A DNA stretch of 64,000 nucleotides from Bacteroides cellulosilyticus DSM 14838 (lineage in GTDB: Bacteria; Bacteroidota; Bacteroidia; Bacteroidales; Bacteroidaceae), in NCBI RefSeq assembly GCF_000158035.1, contig NZ_EQ973490.1, positions 1,944,665 through 2,008,664 of the forward strand, given 5' to 3'. Position numbers and translations under genes: made by a program. Below are positions 5,204 through 24,278 of the stretch, one piece after another (within the stretch, counting starts at the first letter, position 1; every line of letters starts with the position of its first letter). A model generated the notes under the pieces. The model was not told the origin of the DNA, ran no database searches, and saw nothing but the letters and a program-made list of their open reading frames with translations.

Positions 5204-5287
5204 GCCCAGATGGCGGAATCGGTAGACGCGCTGGTCTCAAACACCAGTGGATTCACTTCCATCCCGGTTCGACCCCGGGTCTGGGTA
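5204..5287 (+). tRNA. tRNA-Leu, anticodon CAA
   Basis: The sequence folds as a class II tRNA: acceptor arm GCCCAGA/TCTGGGT, anticodon arm CTGGT-CTCAAAC-ACCAG giving anticodon CAA (reads UUG), a long variable arm TGGA/TCCA and a T arm CCCGG-TTCGACC-CCGGG. The discriminator base is A at 5287. CCA is not encoded (next bases CTG), so it must be added after transcription. Confidence 0.95.
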
Positions 5288-5292
5288 CTGAG

Positions 5293-5598: not shown

Positions 5599-6081
5599 AT
5601 GGTGCTGAAGAGGTATGCAATACTTGTTATCGTACTAATATATGGTATTGCAATTGCTACAAGTAAAGAACTGACAGACCATTATGGGTTGTCTTTTCAC
5701 TCTCACGAAGTAAATCAGGATGAACGCACAGGTATGATTTTAGCTTCCGAGCAGGGATTCAATTTTAGACACGGTTTTTCTTTTAACTTTGAACTCTCAC
5801 TTCAGAAAGCTAATCTTACTTATGGTTATGTGTGTCGTATTGTCTCTAATGATGTGGAAACATTGGATTTGGTAGCCAATCTGAATATTGCCAAGATGAA
5901 TTTTATATTATGTGGTTCTGATGGGATTATTTCAAATCAGGAGTTGCAAGGGGAAGATATTGTTCTTGGAGATACTTGGATGAATATTAATATTTCTTTT
6001 TTTTCCCCAGGAAATAATATGCAGTGTGGGCAACGAGACTGTGCATATGCCTCATGGTTTCCAAAACATGGATCATATTAA
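5599..6081 (+). CDS. PUL regulator, N-terminal fragment (frameshifted from the gene at 6026)
   Basis: This 160-codon frame begins with a signal peptide or membrane anchor (AILVIVLIYGIAIATS) and a beta-rich segment resembling the concanavalin/LamG-like sensor domain found at the front of Bacteroides kelch-type PUL regulators (HGFSFNFELSL ... LGDTWMNINISFF). After ISFF the frame reads about 27 unrelated residues and stops. Removing one base from the T8 run at 5997-6004 joins it directly to the next frame, giving about 850 residues with signal, sensor, propeller, membrane helix and DNA-binding domain. Whether this is a sequencing error, a true null, or slippage-based switching cannot be told from one sequence. 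Confidence 0.75.
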   Translation: MVLKRYAILVIVLIYGIAIATSKELTDHYGLSFHSHEVNQDERTGMILASEQGFNFRHGFSFNFELSLQKANLTYGYVCRIVSNDVETLDLVANLNIAKMNFILCGSDGIISNQELQGEDIVLGDTWMNINISFFSPGNNMQCGQRDCAYASWFPKHGSY

Positions 6082-8149
6082 GATTTTTATGGGCTGTAAT
6101 GAGCATCCGGCCTTTGTTACAACTGATGTACCTCCTATGAGTATTCGTAATTTGAAGTTATTTGATAATAAAAAGGAACCGGTTGCCCGGTGGACTTTGG
6201 ATAAACATAGAAAGGATCACGTATATGACGAAATTGATAATATAAAAGCACAAGTATCAAATGGTATATGGAATATTGAGGAATATGTAAGCTGGGAAAA
6301 GAAAATAGAAATATCTGTTAATGAGAGGAATCCGCAAATTGCAACGGATACTGAACATGGCCGTATATTTGTGGCTACTTCGGACTCTTTATATATTTAT
6401 CATACTGAAAACAATGAACTGCAGTGTGTAAAAACGCAAGGGGGAGCGCCCTTTGCGAGTGGAGGCAGTCAGACTATTTATGATCCTGTGATGGATCGGC
6501 TCGTCTCCTATAGTGTACTTTTTCCTCAGTTGATAACTTATGATCTGGAGGGGAATTCATGGTCTTCTTATCCTGGTGTTGAAGGGCTTGCTCCTATACA
6601 ACACCATAATCGATTTATAGACTCTGAAACGAATACGCTGGTTGTTTTTGGGGGATATGGTAATCATGCATTTAAAGCTAATTTAGCTTGTCATTCTTTG
6701 TCGGGTGGAGATTGGAATATTCATTCTCTGGCACCTGAAGTTGCTCCTCGTTTTCTGAGTGCAGCTGGTTATCTGGGAAATGGAAAGTTTCTTGTTATGG
6801 GAGGATTTGGAAGTTTGTCAGGTAAGCAGGAAGAATCTCCCAGAAATTTTGATGATTTGTATGAGGTTGATTATAAAACGGGAAAGGTCAGAAAACTTGC
6901 GGATATTACTTTAGAGAAAGAACATCGTACTTTGGGAAATTCTCTGGTTATTGATAAAGAAAGTGGGAAAATATACGCACTAACTTTTTGTAAGGAGAGA
7001 TTTGATTCGGATATCAGGTTGCTTTCTTTGGATATGAATACATTTCAGCAGGATATTTTAGGCGAGCCGATTCCATACCGGTTTCTGGATACGGAGTCAT
7101 TCGCTGATCTTTTTTTATATCCGAAACAACAAAAGTTGTATGCGGTAGTTCTGAATGCAGGAATAAATCAGCAATATAAAATAAATATCTATTCATTACG
7201 CTATCCTCCTTTGAAGATTTCAGAGATTATGCAAAAGGAGGTGTTGTCTGATAACCACTTTCTTTTTGGGGTATCATTGATTTTACTGGTTAGTGTAATA
7301 GGGGCAATAGGCATGTGGGGCTATAAGAAGAAGCGAAAAGTTGTAGATGTGCAAGTATCGGCAGATTCTTCTTCGGTAAATTCAGTAGTAGAGGAAATAC
7401 CTGAAATTATAAAAGAAAAACCTATCTCATGTATTCGTTTGTTGGGAGGCTTTCAGGTTTTCAATCGCACAGGAGAAGATATAACAGGTAGCTTCAGTCT
7501 GATAACCAGACAACTTTTTGTTTTCTTACTATTGCATTCCATAAAAGATGGCAAGGGTACGACTTCACAGAAAATAGATGAGGTCTTTTGGTTTGGAATG
7601 GACAAAGCGAGCGCTACAAATAATAGAAGTGTAAATATCCGGAAGCTGAGGCTTATTCTTAAGGAAATAGGGGATATCACTCTTGTTAATGAAAATAGCT
7701 ACTGGCATTTGGATATAGGAAAAGAAATCACATGTGATTATTATGATGCAATAAATACTATAAACTACATAAAAAAGGAGAAAGGTTTTAGTTTGGTGAT
7801 GCTGGAACGTTTACTTAATATTGTTTCCAGCGGTTCTTTGCTTCCCAATATGAATGTAGAATGGGCGGATGCATATAAAGCTGATTTTTCTGATAATCTG
7901 ATTGATTTGCTGACTACTATGTTGAGTTTGAAAGATACAGAGAATGATCAGAAATTACTTCTATGTATAGCAGATGCTATTTTATTGCACGATACTACTA
8001 ATGAGGAAGCAATTAAAGTGAAATGCCGTATTTTATATCAGCAAGGACAAAAGGGACTTTCAAAACAAGCTTTTGAAAGATTCAGTGTGGCTTATATGAA
8101 TATGTTAAATGAAAAACCGGCTTTTGAATATCAGGATATCATTCATTAA
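6026..8149 (+). CDS. Kelch beta-propeller membrane regulator with C-terminal winged helix (main fragment)
   Basis: The frame is open from 5984; the first usable start is GTG at 6026, but the true N-terminus is probably supplied by the frame at 5599. The order is: end of the LamG-like domain (FVTTDVPPMSIRNLKLF, typical of the family), galactose oxidase/kelch-like repeats from about 6330 to 7200 (LVVFGGYGN, FLVMGGFGS), one membrane helix at about 7255-7320 (GVSLILLVSVIGAIGMW) followed by KKKRK, and a cytoplasmic winged-helix domain of the SARP/OmpR type (about 7420-7740) plus a BTAD-like helical tail. I infer that it senses glycan outside the inner membrane and binds DNA inside, controlling the divergent-free PUL just downstream. 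Without the first fragment it would lack a signal peptide. Confidence 0.8.
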   Translation: MGNETVHMPHGFQNMDHIKIFMGCNEHPAFVTTDVPPMSIRNLKLFDNKKEPVARWTLDKHRKDHVYDEIDNIKAQVSNGIWNIEEYVSWEKKIEISVNERNPQIATDTEHGRIFVATSDSLYIYHTENNELQCVKTQGGAPFASGGSQTIYDPVMDRLVSYSVLFPQLITYDLEGNSWSSYPGVEGLAPIQHHNRFIDSETNTLVVFGGYGNHAFKANLACHSLSGGDWNIHSLAPEVAPRFLSAAGYLGNGKFLVMGGFGSLSGKQEESPRNFDDLYEVDYKTGKVRKLADITLEKEHRTLGNSLVIDKESGKIYALTFCKERFDSDIRLLSLDMNTFQQDILGEPIPYRFLDTESFADLFLYPKQQKLYAVVLNAGINQQYKINIYSLRYPPLKISEIMQKEVLSDNHFLFGVSLILLVSVIGAIGMWGYKKKRKVVDVQVSADSSSVNSVVEEIPEIIKEKPISCIRLLGGFQVFNRTGEDITGSFSLITRQLFVFLLLHSIKDGKGTTSQKIDEVFWFGMDKASATNNRSVNIRKLRLILKEIGDITLVNENSYWHLDIGKEITCDYYDAINTINYIKKEKGFSLVMLERLLNIVSSGSLLPNMNVEWADAYKADFSDNLIDLLTTMLSLKDTENDQKLLLCIADAILLHDTTNEEAIKVKCRILYQQGQKGLSKQAFERFSVAYMNMLNEKPAFEYQDIIH

Positions 8150-8532: not shown

Positions 8533-11500
8533 ATGGAGAACAAAAACTTTAAAACAGTACAAAAAAGCAGCTTATATCCACTGACTTTTATTTGTATCTG
8601 CATATTTCTTATTGCAGGTGCCTATGTGGAAATGTATGCCGGTACATCTGGGATTCAGCAACAGAATAAAAGAACTGTAACCGGACTTGTCACTGATAGT
8701 TATGGTGAGGTGATGCCGGGAGTTACTATCAGCATTAGAGGAACTTCTCAGGGAGTAATAACTAATCCTGACGGTGAGTATTCTATTACAGTGCCTTCGG
8801 ACACATGTACACTGCGATTTAGTTTTATTGGATATAAAACCGAAGAGGTGGTAGTTGGTAAGCGTCGGATAATTCCGGTTACTCTTTCGGAAGATGTAGA
8901 AGGATTGGATGAAGTCGTTATTGTTGGATTTGGAAAACAGAAGAAAGTCGATGTTATCGGTTCTGTCGTATCTCTGAATATGGGAGAATTGAAGAAAGTT
9001 TCTTCAAGCAACATAACAACTATGATGGCTGGAAATATAGCCGGTATGATTTCTTATCAACGGAGTGGAGAGCCTGGTGCCGATAATGCAGATTTCTTTA
9101 TTCGAGGTGTGACCACTTTCGGATATAAAAAAGATCCACTGATATTAGTGGATGGCATTGAAGTGACTGCTACGGACTTAGCTCGTCTGCAACCGGATGA
9201 TATTGCAAATTTCTCAATAATGAAAGATGCTACTTCCACTGCCGTATATGGTGCCCGTGGTGCAAATGGTGTAATTGCCGTGACGACAAAAGAAGGTACT
9301 GAAGGGAAGTTAAATATTTCTGCTCGTGTAGAAACTGCAATAACACAGTCTACCCGAAATGTAGAGTTGGCAGACCCAATTACTTATATGAGATTAGGCA
9401 ATGAGGCTGTATTGACGCGCAGGCCTGATGGAGCAACTCCTTATTCACAATCTAAGATAGACAATACGATTGCGGGTACAAATAAATACGTATATCCGGC
9501 TACGGATTGGTACAATGAGATGTTTAAGGATAATGCCTCTGTGTATCGAGTGAATTTGAATGCTAATGGAGGTGGAAAAGTTGCTCGTTATTATCTCGCT
9601 GCGTCTTTCGTACAAGATAATGGAAATTTGAAAGTGGATAAACGTAATAATTTTAATAATAATATAAGATTGCGTACTTATTCATTCCGTAGTAACCTGA
9701 ATTTTAATCTTACGAAAACAACAAAGGCGGCTTTACGTATCAATGCTACATTTGATGATTATACTGGACCAATAAATGGTGGAACAGAGGTCTATAATCA
9801 GGTAATGCATGCTAATCCTGTACTTTTTCCACCCTATTATGAACCGGATGATGCGAATATAGCAACCAGTCACATTTTATTTGGAAATGCAGGAGAAGGA
9901 AGTCCTACTTATATCAATCCGTATGCAGAAATGGTAAAAGGATATAAGGATTATTCAAAAAGCAAAATAGATGCTCAGTTTGAGTTGGAACAAGATCTTT
10001 CTTTTCTGACAGAGGGGTTGTCTGTTAGGGGATTATTCAACACATCTCGTTATTCATTTTTTGATGTATCACGCTTCTTTAATCCTTTCTATTACAAGAT
10101 AGATTCTTATAATAAATCAACGAATAAATATCGATTACAGTCGCTAAATGAGACCTCCGGTACCGAATATTTGGGTTATAGTGAAGGACAGAAAGATGTG
10201 ATTTCTTCAGTGTATGTAGAGATTATGGCTAACTATAATCGCACTTTTAAGAAAGATCATACGGTTAGTGGTATGCTTGTGTATACGATGCGCAATTCAT
10301 TGACCGGTAATGCAGGTGATTTGCAATTATCTTTGCCACATAGAAACTTGGGTTTATCAGGTCGTGGTACTTATTCGTACAAGAGCAGGTATTTTGCAGA
10401 ATTTAATTTTGGATATAATGGGAGTGAACGTTTCCATAAGAGTCGCCGTTTTGGCTTTTTCCCTTCAGCAGGGCTTGCTTGGACACTCTCCAATGAAAGT
10501 TTCTGGAAGGTGCCTTTTATTTCTAAATTGAAGTTGAGAGGTACATATGGCTTGGTTGGTAACGATGCTATTGGTAGTGATTATGATCGTTTCTTCTATC
10601 TGTCTAATGTAAATATGAATAGTGCGGATAGGGGAGCTCAATTTGGTATTCCTGGAAGCTATTATTATCGTGATGGAGTTCTTGTTACTCGTAATGCCAA
10701 CGAAGATATCACTTGGGAAATAGCTTATAAAACTAATATTGGTTTCGAATTAGGATTGTTTGATGATGCGTTTGTGATGGAAGCTGATTATTTCCGCGAG
10801 CATCGTACGAATATTCTTATGGACCGCACTTCCATTCCCACTACTATGGGATTGACTGCTACTGAACGCGCGAATGTTGGTGAAGCACGTTCGCAGGGAG
10901 TAGATGGATCAATTGTGTATAATACTACGTTTGGAAAGTCTGTTTGGCTGAAAGCACGTGCTAACTTCACTTTTGCCACCAGTGAGTTTTTAGTATATGA
11001 AGAGCCTAATTATGCAGATTCTTATAGAAAACATGTGGGACATCCATTATCACAACAATGGGGACTGATTGCTGAACGGCTGTTTATAGACGATGCAGAT
11101 GTGGCAAACTCTCCAGTTCAGTCTTTTGGTGAATATAAGGCTGGAGATATAAAATATCGTGATGTCAACAGAGATGGCAAAATAACGGAAGAAGATATGG
11201 TTCCTATTGGCTATCCCACCGATCCAGAGATTATTTATGGTTTTGGAGTTTCGAGCGGTTATAAGAATTTTGATTTTTCCTGTTTCTTTCAGGGATCTGC
11301 ACGTTCCAGTTTCTGGATTGATGCAGAAAATACTTCGCCTTTCAATAATGAAACTCAACTTTTGAAGGCGTATGCAGATAGTCATTGGTCAGAAGATAAT
11401 CGTGACTTGTATGCATTGTGGCCCCGTCTTAGTCCTACTGTAAATAAGAACAATTCGCAGATGAGTACATGGTTTATGCGTAATGGTAACTTTCTGAGAC

Positions 11501-11700
11501 TTAAATCAGTTGAAGTAGGATATACTTTACCAGCTTCCCTATTGAAGAAAATGAGGCTTAGTAATGCTCGCATATATGTGAATGGAACGAACCTGCTATG
11601 TTTTAGTAAATTTAAGCTTTGGGATGTGGAAATGGGTGGAAATGGCTTAGGTTATCCTATTCAGAAGTCTTATAATTTGGGTCTCACAGTATCATTTTAA
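8533..11700 (+). CDS. SusC-like TonB-dependent outer-membrane transporter (PUL 1)
   Basis: The 1055-residue protein imports oligosaccharides across the outer membrane using TonB energy. A signal segment (about 15-37) is followed by a carboxypeptidase-D-regulatory-like domain (about 45-130: VTGLVTDSYGEVMPGVTI ... FSFIGYKTEEVVV), a TonB-box region (LDEVVIVGFGKQKK), the plug (FFIRGVTTFG ... LILVDGIEV ... ATSTAVYGARGANGVI) and a 22-strand-type barrel ending in the terminal aromatic LGLTVSF. Length and order are typical of the SusC/RagA family. It is 11 bases from the SusD partner and first in the operon. The leader contains a small open frame and a hairpin. Confidence 0.97.
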   Translation: MENKNFKTVQKSSLYPLTFICICIFLIAGAYVEMYAGTSGIQQQNKRTVTGLVTDSYGEVMPGVTISIRGTSQGVITNPDGEYSITVPSDTCTLRFSFIGYKTEEVVVGKRRIIPVTLSEDVEGLDEVVIVGFGKQKKVDVIGSVVSLNMGELKKVSSSNITTMMAGNIAGMISYQRSGEPGADNADFFIRGVTTFGYKKDPLILVDGIEVTATDLARLQPDDIANFSIMKDATSTAVYGARGANGVIAVTTKEGTEGKLNISARVETAITQSTRNVELADPITYMRLGNEAVLTRRPDGATPYSQSKIDNTIAGTNKYVYPATDWYNEMFKDNASVYRVNLNANGGGKVARYYLAASFVQDNGNLKVDKRNNFNNNIRLRTYSFRSNLNFNLTKTTKAALRINATFDDYTGPINGGTEVYNQVMHANPVLFPPYYEPDDANIATSHILFGNAGEGSPTYINPYAEMVKGYKDYSKSKIDAQFELEQDLSFLTEGLSVRGLFNTSRYSFFDVSRFFNPFYYKIDSYNKSTNKYRLQSLNETSGTEYLGYSEGQKDVISSVYVEIMANYNRTFKKDHTVSGMLVYTMRNSLTGNAGDLQLSLPHRNLGLSGRGTYSYKSRYFAEFNFGYNGSERFHKSRRFGFFPSAGLAWTLSNESFWKVPFISKLKLRGTYGLVGNDAIGSDYDRFFYLSNVNMNSADRGAQFGIPGSYYYRDGVLVTRNANEDITWEIAYKTNIGFELGLFDDAFVMEADYFREHRTNILMDRTSIPTTMGLTATERANVGEARSQGVDGSIVYNTTFGKSVWLKARANFTFATSEFLVYEEPNYADSYRKHVGHPLSQQWGLIAERLFIDDADVANSPVQSFGEYKAGDIKYRDVNRDGKITEEDMVPIGYPTDPEIIYGFGVSSGYKNFDFSCFFQGSARSSFWIDAENTSPFNNETQLLKAYADSHWSEDNRDLYALWPRLSPTVNKNNSQMSTWFMRNGNFLRLKSVEVGYTLPASLLKKMRLSNARIYVNGTNLLCFSKFKLWDVEMGGNGLGYPIQKSYNLGLTVSF

Positions 11701-11711
11701 TTGTAAATATT

Positions 11712-13652
11712 ATGAAGAAATATAGAATTATATTAGCTGTATTGGCATTGGCTTTTAGCGCTTCTTGTACTGATTATCTGGAAGTTGTTCCAGATAATAT
11801 AGCAACTATAGACAATGCTTTTACAAGTCGGAATACGGCAGAAAAATTTCTTTTTACTTGCTATTCCTATATGCCCTCTCATGCCAGTGTGTATGAACAG
11901 GCTTTTACTATAGCAGATGAATTTATGGTTCCTTACCCTCAAGCTACTAATACCTTTTATAATGATCCTTATGAAATAATAGGTAGAGGAAATCAGAATG
12001 TGGTTGATCCTTCTCTAAATTATTGGGATGGAGCCAAAGGAGGGAAAGCTATGTTTCAGGCTTTGCGTGATTGCAATATTTTTCTTGAGAAAGTAGATAA
12101 TGTACCAGCTTTAGATGTGTCTGAAAAGAAGAGATGGATTGCAGAAGTAAAGTTTCTTAAAGCATATTATCATTATTGGTTACTGCGCATGTATGGTCCC
12201 ATTCCTTTGATAAAAGTTAATTTGCCAGTTTCAGCTTCTGTTGAGGAAGTGCAAGTGAAAAGACAACCAGTGGATGAATGTTTTGATTATATTGTGAGTC
12301 TTCTTGATGAGGCATGTGCGGATCTGCCGGTTAAGCTTCCTAAATTGACTACTGAAATGGGACGTGCAACTCAGCCTATTGCACTTTCTGTTAAAGCAAA
12401 AGTATTGGTAGAAGCTGCCAGTCCATTATTTAATGGAAATGAAGATTATTTGAACTTTAAAGATAATGACGGGATTCCTTATTTTAATCCTACGAAAGAT
12501 TTGGCAAAATGGGAAAAGGCTGCTACTGCTTGTAAAACAGCTATTGCAATGTGCGATTCGGCGGGTTTTAAACTCTACAAATATTCTCCGAACTCAAATG
12601 ATCGGATTAATGATGAACTGACTGTTCAGATGAGTATTCGTAACAGTGTGGCAGAGAATAATTTTAATTTGAATAAAGAAGTTATCTGGGCAAATACAAA
12701 TAATTTATCTGGTCATATTCAGATGCTTAGTACACCAACGCTGGATGCAAAGTTTACTTCTAATGAAGGTCATAGGCTTGTACTTGCTCCGCCTCTGAAT
12801 GTTGCAGAAATGTTTTATAGTTCTCATGGAGTACCCATTGAAGAGGATGAAGAATGGGTAAGTATGGGTAAGTATACCAATAGGTATAGATTAAAAACAG
12901 CGACTTCTGAATATAAATATAATATTAAAGAAGGTGAGCAAACTGCTACGCTTAATTTTGATAGGGAAGTTCGGTTTTATGCAAATCTTTCGTTTGACAG
13001 AAATTTGTGGTATGGCATTGGAAAATATGATATGGAAGACCAATGGGTGATCCGTGCTAGGGTAGGTGAACCTGCCGGGAAGAGAGGAATGTCGCTTTAT
13101 TCTGCTACTGGATATTTTTGTAAAAAACTGGCTAATTATCAGAATAATCTTCTGGAGGGAAATGCTGCCGGGTATATCATTGTAGATTATCCATGGCCAG
13201 TAATAAGATTGGCAGATTTGTACTTACTTTACTCTGAAGCTTTGAATGAAGCGTATGGTCCTTCTTCTGAAGTTTATAAGTGGATTGATCTTGTACGTGA
13301 ACGTGCTGGCTTGGAAGATGTACAAAATTCATGGAAGAAATATGCGATTCCTTCCCGTAAATCTAAACCTGATACTCAGGATGGTTTACGCGAGATCATA
13401 CAAAGGGAAAGATTGATTGAATTAGCAAATGAAGGTCATCGGTATTGGGAAATTCGTCGTTGGAAAAAGGCTAAGGAAATGTGGCATAACCGTCCTATAT
13501 TGGGATGGGATATTGAACAGTCGGAGGCGGAACCCTATTATCGTGTGAAGACCATATTTACTCCACAGTTCACAACTAAAAACTATTTCTGGCCAATAAA
13601 GGAATATGATTTGTCTGTTAATCCGAATTTAGATCAGAATCCTGGTTGGTAA
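11712..13652 (+). CDS. SusD/RagB-like surface glycan-binding lipoprotein (PUL 1)
   Basis: The 646-residue lipoprotein (lipobox SASC, Cys19, followed by TDYLE) forms the lid over its SusC partner and captures glycan. SusD hallmarks are present: the N-terminal YLEVVPDNIATIDNAF, the TPR-like helical stretch around WIAEVKFLKAYYHYWLLRMYGPIPL, and the C-terminal RxRAGLED and LIELANEGHRYWEIRRWKKA, ending near NPNLDQNPGW. It is somewhat longer than the usual 500-600 residues, with a roughly 60-residue inserted part around residues 385-440. The gene is 11 bases after susC, so the pair is co-translated or nearly so. Confidence 0.96.
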   Translation: MKKYRIILAVLALAFSASCTDYLEVVPDNIATIDNAFTSRNTAEKFLFTCYSYMPSHASVYEQAFTIADEFMVPYPQATNTFYNDPYEIIGRGNQNVVDPSLNYWDGAKGGKAMFQALRDCNIFLEKVDNVPALDVSEKKRWIAEVKFLKAYYHYWLLRMYGPIPLIKVNLPVSASVEEVQVKRQPVDECFDYIVSLLDEACADLPVKLPKLTTEMGRATQPIALSVKAKVLVEAASPLFNGNEDYLNFKDNDGIPYFNPTKDLAKWEKAATACKTAIAMCDSAGFKLYKYSPNSNDRINDELTVQMSIRNSVAENNFNLNKEVIWANTNNLSGHIQMLSTPTLDAKFTSNEGHRLVLAPPLNVAEMFYSSHGVPIEEDEEWVSMGKYTNRYRLKTATSEYKYNIKEGEQTATLNFDREVRFYANLSFDRNLWYGIGKYDMEDQWVIRARVGEPAGKRGMSLYSATGYFCKKLANYQNNLLEGNAAGYIIVDYPWPVIRLADLYLLYSEALNEAYGPSSEVYKWIDLVRERAGLEDVQNSWKKYAIPSRKSKPDTQDGLREIIQRERLIELANEGHRYWEIRRWKKAKEMWHNRPILGWDIEQSEAEPYYRVKTIFTPQFTTKNYFWPIKEYDLSVNPNLDQNPGW

Positions 13653-13688: not shown

Positions 13689-14876
13689 ATGAAAATATAT
13701 AAGTATATAATATGGATAGCTGTAATCTGCACCTCTTTGTTTGCAGCATGCAGTGACGAAGAGCGTGGCCCGGTGGTTTCAGACTCCACAATACCGGGTA
13801 ATGTGTCTAATGTACAGGTTGAGCGTTTGCCCGGAGCGATTAAACTGAAATATGATTTGCCTAATGACCAGGCATTGGCTTATGTGAAGGCAGAATGTGT
13901 GATGAATGGTATAAAACGCGAAGTCAAGGCCTCTGCATATAATAATAATCTGATAATACAGGGCTTTCCGGATACTTGTTCTTATCAGATAAATTTGTAT
14001 TCAGTGAATCGCAGTGAAGTAGTTAATCCTTCACCTGTGACCTTGAGTGCCAAACCTTTGAACCCACCTTTCCAAGATGTATATAAAACCTTGTCTTTGA
14101 TGAAAGATTTTGGAGGTGCAACGGTGACATTTGAGAATCCAATGGAAGCAGATTTGGCAATCACTCTAATGTATATTGATTCTTTGGGATATTGGTCGTC
14201 GGGGGAAACTCTCTATACAAAGCGGTTGGAAGGTTCCGTATCTATACGTAATATGGATACTATTCCTACAACGTTCGGGGTGTATATTCGAGATCGTTGG
14301 AATAACATGACGGACACGCTTGTTAGTGAATTAACTCCGATGTATGAACATGAGCTTGATAAGACTCTTTTCAGACAATATAACTTGCCTACAGATGAAC
14401 CATCTGCTTATGGGTGGACGGTTCCTATGTTGTGGGATGGAAGTACGGCTGATGGAAGTGGATTCCACACAGATGGAACAACGTGGCCGCAATGGATAAC
14501 GATTGACTTGGGAGCTGAAAAAATCAAACTGAGTCGATTTAGATATTGGCAACGTCAAACATGGGGATATGGATTTGCGGATAGAAATGTGAAGAAGATG
14601 GAGATATGGGGCAGTACAGCGCCTAATCCAGATGGATCATGGGATGATTCCTGGGTATATCTGACCACTGCGACTTCTGTTAAGCCTTCCGGACTTCCTT
14701 TAGGTGAACTATCTTCAGAAGATACTCAATTATTGAATGATGGTGAAGAGTTTTCTTTTCCATTAGAAGTACCGGCTATCCGTTACCTGAGATTGAAAGT
14801 GATGGAAACGTGGAGTGGGGCAAGAGGATCATGGTATCTTATGGAATTGTCTTTCTGGGGAGCTGAAGAAGAATAG
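13689..14876 (+). CDS. Surface lipoprotein, DUF4959/DUF5126/DUF5000-type (PUL 1)
   Basis: The 395-residue lipoprotein (FAAC, Cys21, then SDEE) has three parts: a DUF4959-like fibronectin-type domain (about 30-125: TIPGNVSNVQVERLPGAIKLKYDLP), a DUF5126-like middle (about 130-220) and a C-terminal F5/8 type C-like galactose-binding fold (about 235-395: WDGSTADGSGFHTDG ... WITIDLG ... RYLRLKVMETW). Such proteins follow susD in PULs and are thought to bind glycan at the surface. Domain names are from memory of the families; binding is inferred. It sits in the susCD operon, 36 bases after susD. Confidence 0.85.
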   Translation: MKIYKYIIWIAVICTSLFAACSDEERGPVVSDSTIPGNVSNVQVERLPGAIKLKYDLPNDQALAYVKAECVMNGIKREVKASAYNNNLIIQGFPDTCSYQINLYSVNRSEVVNPSPVTLSAKPLNPPFQDVYKTLSLMKDFGGATVTFENPMEADLAITLMYIDSLGYWSSGETLYTKRLEGSVSIRNMDTIPTTFGVYIRDRWNNMTDTLVSELTPMYEHELDKTLFRQYNLPTDEPSAYGWTVPMLWDGSTADGSGFHTDGTTWPQWITIDLGAEKIKLSRFRYWQRQTWGYGFADRNVKKMEIWGSTAPNPDGSWDDSWVYLTTATSVKPSGLPLGELSSEDTQLLNDGEEFSFPLEVPAIRYLRLKVMETWSGARGSWYLMELSFWGAEEE

Positions 14877-14899
14877 AGTAATTATAAAATGTTGAAAAT

Positions 14900-16090
14900 A
14901 TGAAAAAGAATATATTCGGATTTTTATTTGTCATCTTTTTCTGCGGCATATGCATAAGTTGCGTAGATTCTGATGATTACAAAAAATATCTGGCGGGTGG
15001 AGAGATTATATACCCTCAAAAGGCTGATTCAGTAAGAATTCTTCCTGGTAGAGAAAGGGTGCAGGTTGAATGGCTTATGGTCGATCCTAGGGTAACTTCC
15101 TGTGATATCTATTATGAACAAGGTGGGATTGAGAAGCTTTTCAATTTGCCTATTGACCTAACTTCGCATGATAGGGATACTATTAGAGTTATTATAGATG
15201 ATCTGGAAGAAACAAGCTATCGATTTAAGCTTATAACTCACGATGACTATGGAAATTCATCTATAACTGTTGAGGCGGAAGGATCAGCCTATGGAAAGAA
15301 TTATGAAAGTTCTCTTTTTAACAGGGTTATCCGGACAAAAACGGTGACACCGGAAGGCCTTTTAATAAATTGGTATGAATCTGAACAAATGGAAGTGGGA
15401 GTTGACTTAGAGTATACAGATTCCAAAGGTAGTATAAAAAAAGTGTTCATGCCTGATTCTATAAATCAGATTCTTTTGGATGACTGTGATGTTGCAACTC
15501 CTTTTACTTATGTGACGAGATATAAGCCTGTCAAAGAAGCGATAGATGAATTTTATGCAGCAAAGGAGCAAGGGATTGTTGAGTTCCCCTCGGAATTAAC
15601 CAATGCCCAGGCACCGTTTGAGATTACGGATCAAGGTTGGTGGAATGACCGTTTTGGAGTTGCTAAGGGATGGAATACTAATGAAGCAGGAAGGGTGAAT
15701 GGAAATGTTGACCGGAATTTCAATAATGCAATGACTATTTGGTCATGGCCTGACTATAGTCCGGTACAAGGCTTGTATAATGCGAAAATTTACCAGATAC
15801 TTTCCTTGAATCCCGGAATTTATACTTTTGAAGCAACGGTTGGAAGGCTTTCTGCTTCAATTAATAAAGAATACGTGGTAGTATCTAAGGGAATAGAGGT
15901 AAATAATATCGAAGATGTTGAACGCTTCGCTCTTTCCTATCAGGAAGTGGTTCCTGGTATTCCCGAAGGTACTGTTCTACAATGTGAATTTGAACTGAAG
16001 GAAACAAGTATTGTGTCGGTAGGGCTTGTTGCCAACATAGAACCTTCTCAAGAAACCCAATATAATAAGTTTGAATTGAAAAAGGATTAG
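14900..16090 (+). CDS. Surface lipoprotein, DUF4998/DUF5013-type (PUL 1)
   Basis: The 396-residue lipoprotein (lipobox ending ISC, Cys21, then VDSDD) starts with a DUF4998-like region (YLAGGEIIYPQKADSVRILPG ... GRERVQVEWLMVDPRVTSCDIYY) made of fibronectin-like strands, and ends with a jelly-roll-like DUF5013 region (about 270-396) that often binds carbohydrate. It usually accompanies the DUF4959-type protein in the same PULs. It is 23 bases downstream of that gene; a 90-base gap with a hairpin then separates it from the enzyme genes. Role as a surface glycan-binding protein is inferred. Confidence 0.82.
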   Translation: MKKNIFGFLFVIFFCGICISCVDSDDYKKYLAGGEIIYPQKADSVRILPGRERVQVEWLMVDPRVTSCDIYYEQGGIEKLFNLPIDLTSHDRDTIRVIIDDLEETSYRFKLITHDDYGNSSITVEAEGSAYGKNYESSLFNRVIRTKTVTPEGLLINWYESEQMEVGVDLEYTDSKGSIKKVFMPDSINQILLDDCDVATPFTYVTRYKPVKEAIDEFYAAKEQGIVEFPSELTNAQAPFEITDQGWWNDRFGVAKGWNTNEAGRVNGNVDRNFNNAMTIWSWPDYSPVQGLYNAKIYQILSLNPGIYTFEATVGRLSASINKEYVVVSKGIEVNNIEDVERFALSYQEVVPGIPEGTVLQCEFELKETSIVSVGLVANIEPSQETQYNKFELKKD

Positions 16091-16105
16091 GTTTTCAAGG
16101 TAAAA

Positions 16106-16158
16106 CAGCCGGAAATAGAGTGCTTTTATTGGGTATATCCACTTCTTGTTTCCGGCTG
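16106..16158 (+). repeat. Hairpin between binding-protein genes and enzyme genes of PUL 1
   Basis: CAGCCGGAAA (16106-16115) pairs perfectly with TTTCCGGCTG (16149-16158) over a 33-base loop whose ends can also pair partly (TAGAGTG with CACTTCTTG). There is no T tail, so it looks like an mRNA processing or stability element rather than a terminator. Confidence 0.55.
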
Positions 16159-16180
16159 ATTGTAAAATGAAAAATAATAA

Positions 16181-18880
16181 ATGATGAATTTTATAAAATA
16201 TATTTGTCTAATGCTACTTCTGTGGGGAGTTAATTTGTCTTCATTTTCTCATCCCACTAATTTACGTTGTGAGTATTTATCTGACCCTTTAGGGATTGAT
16301 ACCCCGTTTCCCCGGTTAACTTGGTTGTTGGATGATACTGAGTATGGAGCAAAGCAGCTTGCATATCGTATTTTAATATCTACGGAGCAAGAAAAATTGA
16401 AATCCGGACAGATTGATATTTGGGATACGGGCAGAGTACCTTCGGAAGATATGCTGATTGTGTATAATGGGAAGGCTTTGAAGCCTTTTACCAAATATTA
16501 TTGGCAGGTTTATGTATGGGATAAGAATAATAAAGAACTTCATTCTGATGTGGCAACTTTTGAGACTGGGATGATGAGTCTTGGAAATTGGAAAGGCGCG
16601 TGGATTAGTGATGGACATGGACTCGATGGACATAGTAAACATGTGAAACAAGCTCCTTATTTTCGCAAAGTTTTCAATCTATCTAAGCCTGTGGATGAGG
16701 CACGTGCTTATATAGCTGTGGCTGGATTATATGAATTATATATCAATGGAAAGAAAGTCAGTGATCACCGGCTTGATCCAATGTTTACCCGCTTTGACAG
16801 GCGTAATTTATATGTTACCTATGACGTGACTTCTTATTTGCAAAGTGGGGATAACGCTATTGGGGTAGTTTTAGGTAATGGATGGTATAACCACCAATCA
16901 ATGGCTGTGTGGTTTTTTGATCGGGCGCCTTGGCGGGACAGACCGGCTTTCTGTATGGATATGCGCATTACTTATGCTGATGGATCAAAAGAGACAATTA
17001 GTACAGGAAAAGATTGGAAGACTTCTTTTGGACCTATTGTTTTCAATAGTATATATACAGCGGAGCATTACGATGCACGCTATGAACAGCCAGGATGGAA
17101 TACCATTCATTTTTCCGATAGCAAATGGAAAAATGTACTTTTTCGGGATGCACCTTCACAAAATATTGTTTCACAGCAGTTGCATCCTATCCGTAATGTT
17201 GAACGGATAGTTCCTAAGCGGGTCACTAAAATTAATGATATGACTTATCTGTTTGATTTTGGAAAGAATATTGCCGGTGTAACAGAATTGAAGATAGAGG
17301 GACAGAAAGGAATGGAGATCCGTGTGAAGCATGGCGAAATGCTTGGCGAAGATGGTAGGTTGGATATGAGGCAAATAGAAGCTCACTATCGTCCTAAAGA
17401 TGATAAAGATCCGTTTCAAACGGATATTTATACATTGAAGGGAGATGAAGTGGAAACATTTATGCCTTTGTTCAATTACAAGGGATTTCAGTATGCGGAG
17501 GTTACTGCCGATAGGCCAATTACTTTGACAGTCGATAACCTGACGGCTTGGTTTATGCACAATGATGTACCTGTAACTGGACATATTGAAACATCAAATC
17601 CTTTGATTAATAAAATTTGGGAAGCTACAAATACAGCTTACTTATCCAATTTATTTGGATATGCAACTGACTGTCCTCAGCGAGAGAAAAATGGTTGGAC
17701 GAATGATGCTAATATTGCAATAGAAACTGGATTATTTAATTTCGATGGCATTACCGTTTATGAAAAATGGTTGGCTGATCATCGGGATGCTCAGCAGCCG
17801 AATGGGGTGTTACCTTGTATTATTCCTGACAGTGGCTGGGGATTTGAGTGGGCAAATGGGCTGGATTGTACTTCTACAATAGCCATTATTCCGTGGAATA
17901 TATATATGTTTTATGGAGACAGCCGGTTACTTGCTGATTGTTATGAAAGTATTAAACGATATGTAGATCATGTGACAGATATTACTCCATCAGGACTAAC
18001 TTCTTGGGGATTAGGTGACTGGGCAGTTTATAAATCAAAGATTCCTACAGAATTTGTTGCATCTGTTTATTATTATATTGATGCTGTAATTTTATCTAAA
18101 GCTGCAGCTTTGTTAGGTAAGATTGAGGATGAGAAAAAATATGTGGCATTAAGTAATAAAATAAAGGAAGCATTTAATGAACGATATTTAAACAGAGCAA
18201 ATGGACTATATGGTGAAGGAAGACAAGCTGAACAGGCTATGCCTCTGTATTGGGGATTGATTCCGGAAGAACTGAAAAGTAAAGCAGCGGCTCATTTGGC
18301 TGAAAGAGTAATAAAGGACGGTAAACATATTGATGTTGGAATCTTTGGTGCTAAGGCTCTTTTGAATGCATTAAGTGATAATGGATATGCGGATTTAGCT
18401 TATGAAGTTGCTAGTCAGAAAACTTTTCCTTCTTGGGGATGGTGGATTGAAAATGGAGCTACTACTTTGTATGAAAACTGGAATCTGAAAGAGGATATGT
18501 CACGAAATCATATTATGTTTGGTGAAATCAGTGCCTGGTTTTACAAAGCATTAGGCGGGATTAAACCGGACCCCGTTTTGCCGGGTTATAAGAATATTTT
18601 GCTTCAGCCTTGTTTTATTTCCGGCTTGTCTCATGCTTCTGCTTCTTATCAATCACGTTATGGTACAATTGTCTCAAAATGGAAAAGGGATAAACAAAGA
18701 ATTCATTATCAGGCTATAGTACCTGCTAATACAACTGCGGCTTTGTCTTTACCAACTGGTTTTAAAATACGTAAGGTCATATTGGGTTCTGGAGAAACTA
18801 CAGTTGAACTGTTGAAAAAAGCGGATAATGTTTATTATCTACCTTCAGGATGCTATAGTATGGAATTTGTGAAGAAGTAA
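16181..18880 (+). CDS. Alpha-L-rhamnosidase, GH78
   Basis: The 899-residue exported enzyme removes terminal alpha-L-rhamnose. The family order is clear: an N-terminal fibronectin-like domain (TNLRCEYLSDPLGIDTPFPRL), a carbohydrate-binding beta domain (about 150-330: ARAYIAVAGLYELYINGKKVSD; VVLGNGWYNH), an (alpha/alpha)6 catalytic barrel (about 440-780) and a C-terminal beta sandwich. Catalytic-region motifs include DCPQREKNGWTNDANIA, holding the conserved acidic residue, and WWIENGATTLYENW, whose Glu is the likely base, then NHIMFGEISAWFYKALGGI. A signal peptide covers residues 1-23 with no lipobox, suggesting periplasmic action. First of the enzyme genes in PUL 1. Confidence 0.95.
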   Translation: MMNFIKYICLMLLLWGVNLSSFSHPTNLRCEYLSDPLGIDTPFPRLTWLLDDTEYGAKQLAYRILISTEQEKLKSGQIDIWDTGRVPSEDMLIVYNGKALKPFTKYYWQVYVWDKNNKELHSDVATFETGMMSLGNWKGAWISDGHGLDGHSKHVKQAPYFRKVFNLSKPVDEARAYIAVAGLYELYINGKKVSDHRLDPMFTRFDRRNLYVTYDVTSYLQSGDNAIGVVLGNGWYNHQSMAVWFFDRAPWRDRPAFCMDMRITYADGSKETISTGKDWKTSFGPIVFNSIYTAEHYDARYEQPGWNTIHFSDSKWKNVLFRDAPSQNIVSQQLHPIRNVERIVPKRVTKINDMTYLFDFGKNIAGVTELKIEGQKGMEIRVKHGEMLGEDGRLDMRQIEAHYRPKDDKDPFQTDIYTLKGDEVETFMPLFNYKGFQYAEVTADRPITLTVDNLTAWFMHNDVPVTGHIETSNPLINKIWEATNTAYLSNLFGYATDCPQREKNGWTNDANIAIETGLFNFDGITVYEKWLADHRDAQQPNGVLPCIIPDSGWGFEWANGLDCTSTIAIIPWNIYMFYGDSRLLADCYESIKRYVDHVTDITPSGLTSWGLGDWAVYKSKIPTEFVASVYYYIDAVILSKAAALLGKIEDEKKYVALSNKIKEAFNERYLNRANGLYGEGRQAEQAMPLYWGLIPEELKSKAAAHLAERVIKDGKHIDVGIFGAKALLNALSDNGYADLAYEVASQKTFPSWGWWIENGATTLYENWNLKEDMSRNHIMFGEISAWFYKALGGIKPDPVLPGYKNILLQPCFISGLSHASASYQSRYGTIVSKWKRDKQRIHYQAIVPANTTAALSLPTGFKIRKVILGSGETTVELLKKADNVYYLPSGCYSMEFVKK

Positions 18881-18913
18881 TTGATATTTTAATCTATTAA
18901 TACCATTGGATAA

Positions 18914-20836
18914 ATGAAGAGAATTTATATTTCTACTCTGTTGATGTTGTTTGTAGTAACAGCTTTTGCTAAAGTGAAGCTGCCAAATACTATTTCTGAC
19001 AACATGATGATTCAGAGGGATAAACCGGTATCGGTTTGGGGATGGGCTGATTCCGGAGAGCGCGTAACAGTCTCCTTGAATGGACAAACAATGAAAACTA
19101 AAGCCGGAAAAGATAAAATATGGGAGGTGCAATTACCGGCAATGCCATATGGGGGGCCCTATGAAATGACTGTTCAAGGTAACACTAATACTATCGTATT
19201 GAAAAACATTTTAATTGGAGATATATGGGTTTGTGGAGGACAATCTAATATGGAATGGCTTATGCAGGATGTCAGAAATGCAGATTATGAAATCAAAAAT
19301 GCCAACTGTCCGACAATAAGACTTTTGCATATTAATCGTGCTATGTCCAATAAGCCGGAGCTTGATGTGGATACATCTGGTTGGATGGAATGTACTTCGC
19401 AGACAGTGCCTCGTTTTACTGCTGTAGGATATTTCTTTGCCCGTGAATTGCAAAAAGAGATAGATGTGCCTATTGGCTTGATTAGTAGTTCATGGGGAGG
19501 TACTGTTGTAGAAACATGGACAAGTATGGAAGAGATGGGGAAAATCCCCGGTTATGCAGAAAGGGTAAAAATGATGTGTGATCCCGGTTTTTTTCATAAG
19601 TTTGAGAAGAAAGATCAACCGGATATTTATCAGGTTTTAGAATCGGATAAAGGATTATCTGAAAAATGGTATCTGCCTGAAACGAATATAACTAAATGGA
19701 AGGAAACACATCTTCCGGGTATGTGGGGCGGAATGAGAATTTATGGCGATGGAGTGATCTGGTTTCGTAAAGAATTTGATTTAACGGCTGAACAGGCCAA
19801 AGAGCCGATAGTCATATCCCTTGGTGCTATTGACGATTGGGATGTTACTTATCTTAATGGGCAAGAAATCGGTAAGATGGATTCTTATAATACCCCTCGT
19901 GAATATATAGTTTCTCCTGAACGGTTAAAAGTTGGTAGAAATGTTTTAGTCGTAAAAGCTGTCAATCATACGGGTGATGGAGGTTTCACCGGTGAAATGA
20001 AGCAAATGTATTGCCTGACTGCCAATGAGCGTATTCCTCTTGCCGGTGACTGGAAATATAGGGTCTCGCAGATTATTGAAACTACAGAGACCTTAGGACC
20101 TAACAGTTATCCTTCATTACTATACAATGCCATGCTGGCACCTCTTACCAAATTCCCTATAAAGGGAACCATATGGTATCAGGGGGAATCAAATTCGGGT
20201 GATGCTTATCGTTATCGTTCTTTATTTCCAAATATGATCAGGGATTGGCGTAAGCAGTGGAAATATGCTGAGATGCCTTTTTACTGGGTACAACTAGCTA
20301 ACTTTATGAAACCGGCAGAAGAACCGGGGCAGAGCGATTGGGCAGAATTACGCGAATCGCAACATCTTACTTTGGAATTGCCATATACAGGTGAAGCTTT
20401 GGCTATTGACATAGGTGAAACTGAAGATATTCATCCTCGTAATAAACAGGATGTCGGCCATAGATTGGCCCTCAATGCTTTGGCCAAAACTTACGGTAAA
20501 GAGGTAGAATTTTCAGGACCTGAATATCAAAGTATGAAAATAGATGGGAATAGAATAATTCTCACTTTTAACCATATAGCACAGGGACTGGTTGCAAAAG
20601 ATAAGTATGGATATCTAAAGGGATTTACTATAGCTGGAGCTGATCAGAAATTTGTGTATGCTAAGGCTGCTATAAAAGGAAATACAATCGTAGTAAGCAG
20701 TGATGAAATCGAAAATCCTGTAGCTGTTCGTTATGCATGGGCTGATAATCCGATTGACGCTAATTTGTATAATAGTGTTGGACTTCCTGCTTCTCCATTC
20801 CGTACGGATACTTGGAAAGTAAGAACACAATATTAA
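18914..20836 (+). CDS. Sialate O-acetylesterase-like SGNH hydrolase
   Basis: The 640-residue exported protein belongs to the SASA family of carbohydrate esterases. It has GGQSNMEW (residues about 110-117) with the catalytic Ser, IWYQGESNSGDAYRY later, and DIHPRNKQDVGHRLA, carrying the Asp/His pair. An inserted beta-sandwich like the sugar-binding domain of GH2 enzymes lies between the two halves (about 275-370: VIWFRKEFDL ... DVTYLNGQEIG). Members remove O-acetyl groups from sialic acid or from plant polysaccharides; beside a rhamnosidase, removal of acetyl groups from the target glycan is the likelier role (inference). It is 33 bases after GH78. Confidence 0.9.
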   Translation: MKRIYISTLLMLFVVTAFAKVKLPNTISDNMMIQRDKPVSVWGWADSGERVTVSLNGQTMKTKAGKDKIWEVQLPAMPYGGPYEMTVQGNTNTIVLKNILIGDIWVCGGQSNMEWLMQDVRNADYEIKNANCPTIRLLHINRAMSNKPELDVDTSGWMECTSQTVPRFTAVGYFFARELQKEIDVPIGLISSSWGGTVVETWTSMEEMGKIPGYAERVKMMCDPGFFHKFEKKDQPDIYQVLESDKGLSEKWYLPETNITKWKETHLPGMWGGMRIYGDGVIWFRKEFDLTAEQAKEPIVISLGAIDDWDVTYLNGQEIGKMDSYNTPREYIVSPERLKVGRNVLVVKAVNHTGDGGFTGEMKQMYCLTANERIPLAGDWKYRVSQIIETTETLGPNSYPSLLYNAMLAPLTKFPIKGTIWYQGESNSGDAYRYRSLFPNMIRDWRKQWKYAEMPFYWVQLANFMKPAEEPGQSDWAELRESQHLTLELPYTGEALAIDIGETEDIHPRNKQDVGHRLALNALAKTYGKEVEFSGPEYQSMKIDGNRIILTFNHIAQGLVAKDKYGYLKGFTIAGADQKFVYAKAAIKGNTIVVSSDEIENPVAVRYAWADNPIDANLYNSVGLPASPFRTDTWKVRTQY

Positions 20837-20852
20837 TTAAAATCCGTTAGCC

Positions 20853-22163
20853 ATGAAAAACAACAAAACAATATATGTCTTAAGTGCTTTGTTTTTAATG
20901 AGTTTAGGTGGAAATACCTTATGCCAAGCTCAGAATAATAATGATGATGACTATTTCTTATGGGGAATAGATAAGGGAGAAGAATGGATAGATGCTATCC
21001 GGATAATTGAACCTGCATGCCGTAGTAATATCAAAGGGGTGGTTAATGTAAAATTTATAGCTCCTGGAATGTTTCATGCAGAAGCTTATTGTTGGGGAGT
21101 GCCGGATCAAGCTAATCCAAGTCATTGGGGACATGATGTGAACTTGACTCCGAAAGGAATAAAATTGGGAAAAGATGGTTCAGGAAGTTTTAAATTTGAT
21201 GCGGAAAAATTTCCTGCGGGTCCAATGACCGTACGTATTTGCGCCAGTGATGGCAAAGGACAAAAGGATGAGTTTGAACTGCAATTGTATAATAAGGGAG
21301 GAGTGAAATGGAAGCAGGGCATTCCACTTAATAATCCTCCTGGTGCCAAAGGTCTGAAACTTGTATTTGCAGATGATTTTGATGGAACCATGTCTATTTC
21401 CAATGATGGACGGAATGCACGTTATTGCGCACATAAACCTCGATTTGGCGATTTTGGCAGTTGGGCTTTTGCTGATGTAGATGGAGAAGATAATCCTTTT
21501 GAACAGTATGATGGATATCTAAGAATAAAGGCTCGCAAACAGGAAGGGAAAAAGGGCAGTACAGGACTCATTGCTTCCGTTAATATGGATGGTGAGGGCT
21601 TTTGGGCAAAGGTTCCATTTTATATGGAGTGTCGTTTTATTGCTCAGTCGGCACCAGGAACATGGCCTGCTTTCTGGACAGTGAATCAGCTTGACTGGGG
21701 AGTACCCGGAGGGGATGAACTGGATATAATAGAGGCATATGGAGGCAGAGGAAAGGGAAGACCTAACCATGAAGGATATTCTGTTTTTAGTCATTATTGG
21801 GGACAGGTGGATGAGAATGGAAAAGGGAAAAACGGAGACAGAACTCGTGTGCCAATTATGGGCTTAGGAGGGAAATCTTATTGGTCAACTACCTTCCATA
21901 CCTACGCTGTTTATGCTGGTTATAAAGAAACAATCTATTATTTTGATAATATTGAGGTTTTCCGTCATCCGACTACTGACGATACCCGCAATAATCCACA
22001 TATTTTTCTTGCAAATCTGGCAATAGGGGGAAATCCTTTTCCTGTAGATCTGGAACGCTATGGTAATGGCTCAGATATGTATATAGACTATATCAGAGTA
22101 TATGCAGAAAAGGAATTGAAAGATTTCTCCAGTCCTCCTCCTGCTACAAAAGCGCATAAATAG
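20853..22163 (+). CDS. Glycoside hydrolase family 16 endo-enzyme with N-terminal beta domain
   Basis: The 436-residue exported protein carries the GH16 active-site motif GDELDIIEAYGG, with nucleophile Glu289, Asp291 and acid/base Glu294, in the beta-bulge form ExDxxE. The catalytic domain spans about 170-425 (LVFADDFDGTMS; GTWPAFWTVNQLDW; IYFDNIEVFRHP-like segment; MYIDYIRVYAEKE). Residues about 40-160 form a separate Ig-like or binding domain beginning WIDAIRIIEPACRSNIKGVV. GH16 enzymes cut internal beta-1,3, beta-1,4 or mixed glucans and galactans; I cannot assign the subfamily. It probably makes the first cut in the backbone. The signal peptide is plain (residues 1-26). Confidence 0.92.
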   Translation: MKNNKTIYVLSALFLMSLGGNTLCQAQNNNDDDYFLWGIDKGEEWIDAIRIIEPACRSNIKGVVNVKFIAPGMFHAEAYCWGVPDQANPSHWGHDVNLTPKGIKLGKDGSGSFKFDAEKFPAGPMTVRICASDGKGQKDEFELQLYNKGGVKWKQGIPLNNPPGAKGLKLVFADDFDGTMSISNDGRNARYCAHKPRFGDFGSWAFADVDGEDNPFEQYDGYLRIKARKQEGKKGSTGLIASVNMDGEGFWAKVPFYMECRFIAQSAPGTWPAFWTVNQLDWGVPGGDELDIIEAYGGRGKGRPNHEGYSVFSHYWGQVDENGKGKNGDRTRVPIMGLGGKSYWSTTFHTYAVYAGYKETIYYFDNIEVFRHPTTDDTRNNPHIFLANLAIGGNPFPVDLERYGNGSDMYIDYIRVYAEKELKDFSSPPPATKAHK

Positions 22164-22194
22164 TATTATTGAATCATCTTTTAAAAAGAGAATT

Positions 22195-24039
22195 ATGGGT
22201 AAAGGTATTTTTAAAATAATAATGATAAGCTTTCTTTTATTGGGCGCTGATATGGCACAAGTCCGGTCAGCTGCTCCGACAGACTTTGAGAATACAGGGA
22301 AAATTCAATTGAATCCTGTGTTGGTTTCGACTGACATTGGCAAGAAGAAGAATGTTGCGAAGAATCTGGGAGAAGGCAATATGCGATTGACAGGTAAACT
22401 GGTGCGCTATGGTGATAATCTGACTTTTTCAGGAGTTGCCAATGCCGGAAAAGAACTTGTTATTGATGTGACGGAACTGGGGTATTATACTTTGGAACTC
22501 ACTTTAGCTGATAATGAGAATATTATTCAGACAACTGTAGTGAATTATGCTGTAGTTCCTGAGATAATAGATGAGGAGCGTCCTTTGGATATGGGCGTTT
22601 GTGTTCATCCTCCTAAAGATAACGATTACTCTAAGACATTCAGGCTGATAAGAATGGCAGGATTTACGCGTATCCGTACGGATTTGGCATGGGAACATGT
22701 GGAGCCGGCCAAAGGAAAGTATGTTATGCCGGAACATATGTATCAGTTTGTAAGTGCTTCAGAGAAGGAAGGTATTAAACCTTTGATTGTTTTCGGTTAT
22801 GCTAATGCAATTGCTTATCCGAATGGCTTTCCGACTATTCCTTTTCCTACAACTGAGGAGTCTCGGTTAGGGTGTGCCAATGCACTTGCTTATGCAGTAA
22901 AAGAAATGGGAAACCGTGTTACTGAATGGGAGTTATGGAATGAGCCCAATTATGCCGATCCGGTAAAAGACTATTTGCCATTATTAAAGGTCGTGTATCC
23001 GACTGTAAAGAAGGTTAATCCTGATATTACTTTAATTTCCGGTGGTGGTTCCGGAGCAGGTGGTGGTCCTGGAGGAGCTTTTATCATACCGGTTTTGGAT
23101 GCAGGGGGAGTTGACTTTCAAGATGGATATAGCATTCATCCTTATATGGCCCCTAATACCCCTGATTTTGGATATGCAGGAACCGGGGGGCCTATTCCGG
23201 CTGTGAATATTCCAACTGTATGGCCTTATTTAAAGAAGATATCAGAAGAGAATCTACGTTCGGATAAAAAGGAATTATCGGTGTGGGTTACGGAAATCGG
23301 TTGGAACAGTACTACTAATTTAGATATAGAACAGGCGGCATATCTGGCTCGCACTTATTTGTTGTCTCGCAGACATTATATGTCTCCCGGAGTATTTTGG
23401 TATGATTTTCAGAATGATGGAGACACACCGGACAATATAGAGCATAATTTTGGTTTGCTTCGTTCGGACTTTTCGCCTAAGCCATCTTATCAGGCAGCAG
23501 CTGTTGTGGCGTCCTTATTGAAAAATTATACTTTTCAAGAGACACTCCTTGATGGAGTCAATAAAGTTCTTGCTTTTGGTCAAGATGGGGAGACTACTTT
23601 CTATACAGCCTGGACAACAAAAGCAGAGGGGACTACAATACGTGTGAAGGCTCCGACGGATGTGGATAAATTGCGATTAATAGACTGGCAAGGATGTGAA
23701 ATGCCATTGACTGTTGATAATGGGTATCTTGTATTGAATCTTAGTATTTTACCTCAGTATCTGGTTGTAAAAGAAGAGGTGGTTGGGATAACATCTCCTG
23801 TTGGTAAAGCGGGAATAAAACTATATCCAAATCCTTCAACTGGCTTATTGATTGTTAATTGGGGACACGAGGGGAATCGCACTATTACGATTAATGATCT
23901 TAATGGCCGGATTTTACAGCGAAAGGTAACTTATGGTTTGGAGACTCAAATGAATATCTCGGATTTGAATGCCGGAATATATATGCTGTGTGTTAATGAT
24001 GGCAAAGAACAAGTGACTTTGAAAGTAATAAAACAATAA
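22195..24039 (+). CDS. Clan GH-A glycoside hydrolase with T9SS type A C-terminal domain
   Basis: The 614-residue exported protein has a (beta/alpha)8 barrel of clan GH-A at about 120-450. The likely acid/base is Glu250 in ELWNEPNY, and the likely nucleophile is Glu367 in SVWVTEIGWN. Before the barrel is a beta domain (about 30-120). It resembles GH39 and the endo-beta-glucanase families GH157/GH158, but I cannot choose. After a beta segment, the last 75 residues (GIKLYPNPSTGLLIVNW ... ISDLNAGIYMLCV ... VTLKVIKQ) match a T9SS type A sorting domain, which is odd because gut Bacteroides generally lack a type IX system. A 239-base gap follows before GH3. Confidence 0.85.
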   Translation: MGKGIFKIIMISFLLLGADMAQVRSAAPTDFENTGKIQLNPVLVSTDIGKKKNVAKNLGEGNMRLTGKLVRYGDNLTFSGVANAGKELVIDVTELGYYTLELTLADNENIIQTTVVNYAVVPEIIDEERPLDMGVCVHPPKDNDYSKTFRLIRMAGFTRIRTDLAWEHVEPAKGKYVMPEHMYQFVSASEKEGIKPLIVFGYANAIAYPNGFPTIPFPTTEESRLGCANALAYAVKEMGNRVTEWELWNEPNYADPVKDYLPLLKVVYPTVKKVNPDITLISGGGSGAGGGPGGAFIIPVLDAGGVDFQDGYSIHPYMAPNTPDFGYAGTGGPIPAVNIPTVWPYLKKISEENLRSDKKELSVWVTEIGWNSTTNLDIEQAAYLARTYLLSRRHYMSPGVFWYDFQNDGDTPDNIEHNFGLLRSDFSPKPSYQAAAVVASLLKNYTFQETLLDGVNKVLAFGQDGETTFYTAWTTKAEGTTIRVKAPTDVDKLRLIDWQGCEMPLTVDNGYLVLNLSILPQYLVVKEEVVGITSPVGKAGIKLYPNPSTGLLIVNWGHEGNRTITINDLNGRILQRKVTYGLETQMNISDLNAGIYMLCVNDGKEQVTLKVIKQ

Positions 24040-24278
24040 CTATTTATAGAGCGAATAAATTGAAACGGAAATTTATCATATTGATATTATATGTGGGTTG
24101 GGTGGGAATCTGTTCTGCCTAGCAAAAATTCTCTTGTATTTCGGGGCCCTTCCCAATTTTGTTGGTTTGTTAGATTAAGAGTGGGAAGATTGGAATACAG
24201 AACTTGTTCGGGTTATTTATGATGTCTTTTTACCGACTGGATGAGAAGTACAAGTCTGTTATATTAAAAATAAATATT

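Follow-up and report, generated by a model that had tools for sequence, protein, structure and literature searches.

Hybrid two-component systems carry a propeller sensor outside and a DNA-binding part of the AraC type inside. ToxR and TcpP are membrane-anchored one-component regulators, and SARP denotes the Streptomyces antibiotic regulatory protein fold. In Bacteroides, hybrid two-component systems are named as PUL sensors in a passage of PMC3747994. The locus described here lies in a stretch of 64,000 nucleotides of DNA from Bacteroides cellulosilyticus DSM 14838, analysed as a whole and called the window. Like the hybrid systems, its regulator is predicted to be a transmembrane protein that senses through an external propeller and binds DNA on the inner side, and it is encoded beside susC/susD; unlike them, it shows no histidine kinase or receiver domain by Pfam, neither in the window protein nor among 25 of the 39 families listed, and its DNA-binding part would be of the SARP fold and not of the AraC type. 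As in ToxR and TcpP, a winged helix is anchored at the membrane, and the fold search returned that of TcpP with Z 9.7; the order is the reverse, however, with the sensor at the N-terminus and the DNA-binding part at the C-terminus, and there are BTAD-like helices as well. Compared with the SARP-type proteins AfsR and EmbR, to which identity is 13-17%, the SARP part here stands at the C-terminus, after the membrane helix, the sandwich and the Kelch propeller. Within the limited collection and terms searched, we found no description of a Kelch/SARP PUL regulator in the literature.

Two open frames at a T8C4 tract

The regulator is read in two frames, and its surroundings in the window are as follows.

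5204..5288, + strand: tRNA-Leu (caa); two relatives cease to match 54-64 bp past its end
5599..6081, + strand: ORF1, a presumed signal peptide and most of an N-terminal ConA/lamininG-like beta-sandwich; the last part, up to the stop, is read out of frame (ORF list, homologue alignment, homologue model)
5984..8149, + strand: ORF2 open frame, the last sandwich strands, Kelch propeller, membrane helix, winged helix and helical SARP-type C-terminus (ORF list, Pfam Kelch matches, models, fold searches)
5997..6008, + strand: T8C4 tract with a surplus base, giving a frame change (direct reading, HMM change at 6000, homologue alignment)
7409..8149, + strand: predicted cytoplasmic SARP-fold DNA-binding part, a winged helix and BTAD-like helices (AF2 pLDDT 93.3; AfsR Z 14.7, EmbR Z 13.8)
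8533..11700, + strand: SusC-type TonB-dependent receptor, open, the next gene downstream (Pfam Plug, CarbopepD_reg_2)
11712..13652, + strand: SusD-type protein, open (Pfam SusD_RagB, SusD-like_3)
13689..36278, + strand: rest of the presumed PUL, its extent inferred, in open frames (ORF lists, Pfam)

Direct reading places the T8 at 5997-6004 and the C4 at 6005-6008. ORF1 is 160 aa long and ORF2, taken from a GTG, covers 6026-8149 (707 aa); the second frame itself opens at 5984, so that both frames are open from 5984 to 6078. We trained a coding-frame HMM on 394 kb of the contig; it changes frame at window position 6000, and a second version, which allows overlapping genes, does not have the 5997-6008 site among its frame-shift-type transitions. 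On alignment with homologues, the N-terminal piece (..DTWMNINISFF) and the C-terminal piece (FFPQEIICSVG..) join with no residues lost, and the break falls at residues 129-131 of the homologue L166, in the turn between sandwich strands 123-129 and 134-138 of its model. Sequence reading, ORF list and homologue alignment thus agree with the preliminary description, which had placed a T8C4 tract and a two-frame split at 5997-6004, and ORF1 and ORF2 read as two frames of one regulator protein, neither half of which should work alone. The same description held that removal of one T fuses the two ORFs; the pieces do join, and the surplus base, which we place in the T8C4 tract, may be in the T8 or in the C4, as the two are indistinguishable by protein homology. 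It also assigned the signal and sensor piece to the first frame and the propeller, membrane helix and DNA-binding part to the second, a division that needs one correction: the sensor in the first frame amounts to no more than part of the beta-sandwich domain. Two separate genes were also considered, and this reading was rejected because ORF1 stops in mid-domain and ORF2 is without the N-terminal part present in homologues.

The regulator gene adjoins the susC/susD pair, the SusC start lying 384 bp after it. The stretch 13689..36278 encodes DUF4959/DUF5126/DUF5000 and DUF4998/DUF5013 proteins, an alpha-L-rhamnosidase, a SASA esterase, GH3, GH2, two GH92, an ADP-ribosylglycohydrolase and some unmatched proteins. 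Members of the regulator family do not always occupy this position, because SusC follows, downstream on the same strand (the only arrangement scored), at only 13 of the 66 homologue loci, out of 80, that have at least 3.5 kb of room. A promoter scan returned 9 sites against 14.3 expected. On the upstream side, the relatives G086 and G117 match the window to 5352 and 5342, respectively, and then differ; the sequence beyond the tRNA-Leu (window 5204-5352) differs in three related genomes, which marks a variable site. Since related genomes differ past the tRNA-Leu, the PUL may be an accessory insert at this site.

Architecture and family of the regulator

The AlphaFold2 model of the intact homologue L166 (846 aa; pLDDT 90.6, pTM 0.68) runs from an N-terminal helix through a beta-sandwich and a propeller to a long helix at 546-575, presumably the membrane helix, and on to a winged helix with a helical tail. 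As a whole it matches Kelch domains in a fold search, for example that of LZTR1. The Kelch profile PF24681 of Pfam matches all 57 aligned members, with E up to 0.1; Laminin_G_3 matches 5 of the 57 and BTAD 2 (best E 0.002). Searches of PDB sequences with the C-terminus gave weak matches only, with E of 0.4 or more, and no NCBIfam match was found for the window protein. The assignment of the C-terminus came from a fold search with a model of the window protein's own last 246 residues (pLDDT 93.3), in which an OmpR-like winged helix followed by BTAD helices forms one fold that superposes over nearly its whole length on AfsR (Z 14.7, 230 aligned, rmsd 5.3) and EmbR (Z 13.8, 233 aligned, rmsd 5.3). 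OmpR-type DNA-binding domains score lower (Z 10.1 or less). Because of this superposition we assign a SARP-type DNA-binding part, and the models describe the protein as a probable membrane-anchored SARP-fold regulator, AfsR/EmbR-like, with a sandwich and Kelch sensor.

The orthologues of about 850 residues that the preliminary description proposed for comparison were found, and 106 of 116 homologue loci, a number that includes genes present in both genome collections, have a single frame of 826-927 codons between stops. The family to which window 5599-8149 and L165-L244 belong, with its sandwich and Kelch sensor, membrane helix and C-terminal SARP-type part, is widespread in Bacteroidota. A first scan of the named contigs with a single protein found no homologue; in the later set, in which 80 of 146 relatives were kept, the best homologue in named contigs is 46% identical. 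Neither a conspecific genome nor a close orthologue was found in 158 genomes of the genus and 301 of the family, where the nearest homologue stands at 44%, and when the DNA around the break was compared with 149 genomes of the genus, the one match other than the window itself was 77 bases long, at 73%. Elsewhere in this genome we found three more members of the family, each in a single frame of 856-884 aa.

The 10 loci that were flagged reduce to 7 distinct broken genes, since L213 runs off the end of its contig and two of the genes were counted twice.

L009/L189: in-frame TAA
L013: TAG
L015 and L024: apparently in several frames
L016: split by about 52 kb
L044/L194: C-terminal truncation
L196: frame-shifted near the C-terminus

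All of these breaks lie downstream of the T8 site in query coordinates. A further split copy, at G111:C8, is outside the 7 counted. In G110:C1:4227229-4279479 (L155-L157), about 52 kb of DNA splits a regulator homologue and contains a ribosomal-protection gene with elongation-factor domains by Pfam; this insert looks like a conjugative transposon, and its ribosomal-protection gene like TetQ.

Of 97 near-invariant residues the split regulator keeps 89, which ranks it 15 from the bottom of 57 (other members 0.81-1.00, median 0.95), and the ORF list reveals no second frame change in ORF1 or ORF2. Judged from its sequence, the regulator appears free of decay and would not fit a degraded pseudogene. 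Given that 89 of the 97 residues are kept and that the downstream PUL genes are open, the break is recent, artefactual or tolerated.

The tract, the assembly and other one-base breaks

How ordinary is the tract? In a first-order Markov simulation a run of at least 8 occurs in a gene of such length and composition with P of about 0.47, that is, the tract is no longer than chance would give for the gene. Our alignment holds 56 full-length homologues, chosen from 68 usable full-length loci of 80, the other 12 being omitted merely to shorten it; 25 of the 56 carry a run of at least 8 somewhere. Near the equivalent site, T8 or longer occurs in none of the 56, A8 in two and T7 in one, and as the nearest homologues are merely 44-46% identical, this leaves room for a young switch. 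Two other T8 runs in the window, at 8277 and 36404, both lie between main ORFs. Where a T8 run on the coding strand is flanked on either side by coding sequence, the frame changes at 2 of 6 such runs in this genome and at 0 of 4 in controls; for A8 runs the same test gives 1 of 12 here (a gene start) and 2 of 20 in controls.

The genome assembly comprises 6,870,144 bp in 66 contigs, with a completeness of 95.82%, and the window lies in contig C62. The assembly is a draft with gapped scaffolds: 45 runs of N occur in 1.19 Mb, and those in the 394 kb listed measure 113-1926 bases. A one-base break also splits four further genes of contig C62; in each, the pieces correspond to consecutive stretches of one Pfam profile (GH43, SSF) or to domains in their expected order (SusD, SusC).

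C62:1932465: GH43 gene (L052), 18 kb upstream of the regulator; G5 here, G6 in the relative G086, which has a 936-aa open frame
C62:1884317: sodium:solute symporter (L049, L050); another T8, and again about 0.4 kb downstream, by eye
C62:1917970: SusD-like gene (L051); one-base frame change, not at a long run
C62:1541380: SusC-like gene (L092); one-base frame change, not at a long run

In a comparison with G086 over 49 kb of HMM-coding sequence, where overlapping segments count twice, 20 gaps are listed, and the G5/G6 difference in GH43 is the only one of them that is coding. For the symporter no match at E 1e-30 was found in G086, G117, G012 or G001. Breaks visible by homology number 4 in 304 kb here, the symporter not among them, vs 2 in 445 kb of five control genomes (one-sided p = 0.19). 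The HMM, in the version that misses the regulator site, gives 3 frame-shift-type transitions away from N in 1.19 Mb here vs 6 in 1.2 Mb of controls, and 41 overlap-type transitions vs 49. No break was seen in the 159 genes, over 394 kb, that had good matches among the ORFs of the relatives G031 and G022. The case for an error-prone assembly is suggestive only. In the part of PMC2847712 that bears on this, wrong homopolymer counts, though called rare, are the commonest error in assembling pyrosequencing data; the platform used for this genome may differ.

Origin of the frame change

We give about an even chance to a one-base length error, of sequencing or of assembly, in the T8C4 tract of the draft as the cause of the split, and rank this reading first. 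The surplus base would then be lacking from the strain's DNA, and the gene would most likely be intact in the living strain, with some 850 codons. Its product would be an inner-membrane one-component regulator, in which the periplasmic sandwich and Kelch propeller may sense a glycan fragment while the cytoplasmic SARP-type part may act on the adjacent susC/susD operon, as the architecture and the adjacency of the genes suggest. If so, the annotation misses a whole sensor protein and the PUL appears to be without a regulator. The gapped draft, the four other one-base breaks, the conserved residues, the open PUL genes and the homopolymer errors of pyrosequencing speak for such an error; the p value, the absence of an HMM excess, the 159 unbroken genes, the SusD and SusC breaks away from long runs and the natural nulls in the family speak against it. 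A real, recent frameshift of this strain, by which the regulator is null and the PUL uninducible or basal, would be an ordinary loss of accessory function, and we regard it as a serious possibility, somewhat short of an even chance. The family does have broken members, the PUL seems to be accessory DNA, as it lies beside a tRNA-Leu next to which three related genomes carry other sequence, and frame breaks are not significantly commoner here than in controls; because there is no second lesion and conserved residues have not been lost, however, a null would need to be recent, and the PUL genes are still open. Error and null are kept close because the controls give no significant excess of breaks. 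Should the null be real, the strain should not induce the PUL, which matters for growth assays that use it.

The preliminary description offered error, null and slippage switch side by side. The first two both fit, both are ordinary and the evidence favours both; the switch finds no positive support beyond the tract itself, which is short and of a common run length, absent as T8 from the site in all 56 homologues and accompanied by one-base breaks in other genes. By that reading the tract changes length and the regulator and PUL go on and off, which we consider very unlikely. A homopolymer within the coding frame, in the 5' part of the gene, is indeed what homopolymer contingency loci have, and both frames are otherwise undamaged, as a reversible switch requires. 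Unlike those loci, however, T8 is short and not kept in relatives, and there is no sign of mixed lengths. Because runs of at least 8 are common, in the homologues as in the simulation, and none of the homologues has T8 at the site, the tract by itself is no evidence of a switch. One-base breaks also affect unrelated genes of the same genome, the family's three further members found there each occupy one frame, and known Bacteroides switches are mainly DNA inversions. It is very improbable, in our estimate, that T8C4 flips in the living strain and so switches a SARP-type glycan sensor together with a rhamnosidase/GH92 PUL acquired beside tRNA-Leu; if it does, slippage joins the ways in which gut Bacteroides vary their use of glycans. 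There is a similarly slim chance that the break is real and bypassed, some full-length protein being made through RNA polymerase slippage on U8 or ribosomal frameshifting. Neither frame has decayed and U8 is a plausible slippage substrate, yet no family mechanism is apparent, given that the homologues do not share T8 at the site. A programmed frameshift as a trait of the family was rejected, as the site is not kept among homologues.

A minor observation concerns the DNA that precedes the window. The segment C62:1927535-1944664 has N gaps on both sides, and G086 joins its left flank directly to the window start; it has therefore either been inserted here or been put in the wrong place when the draft was scaffolded.
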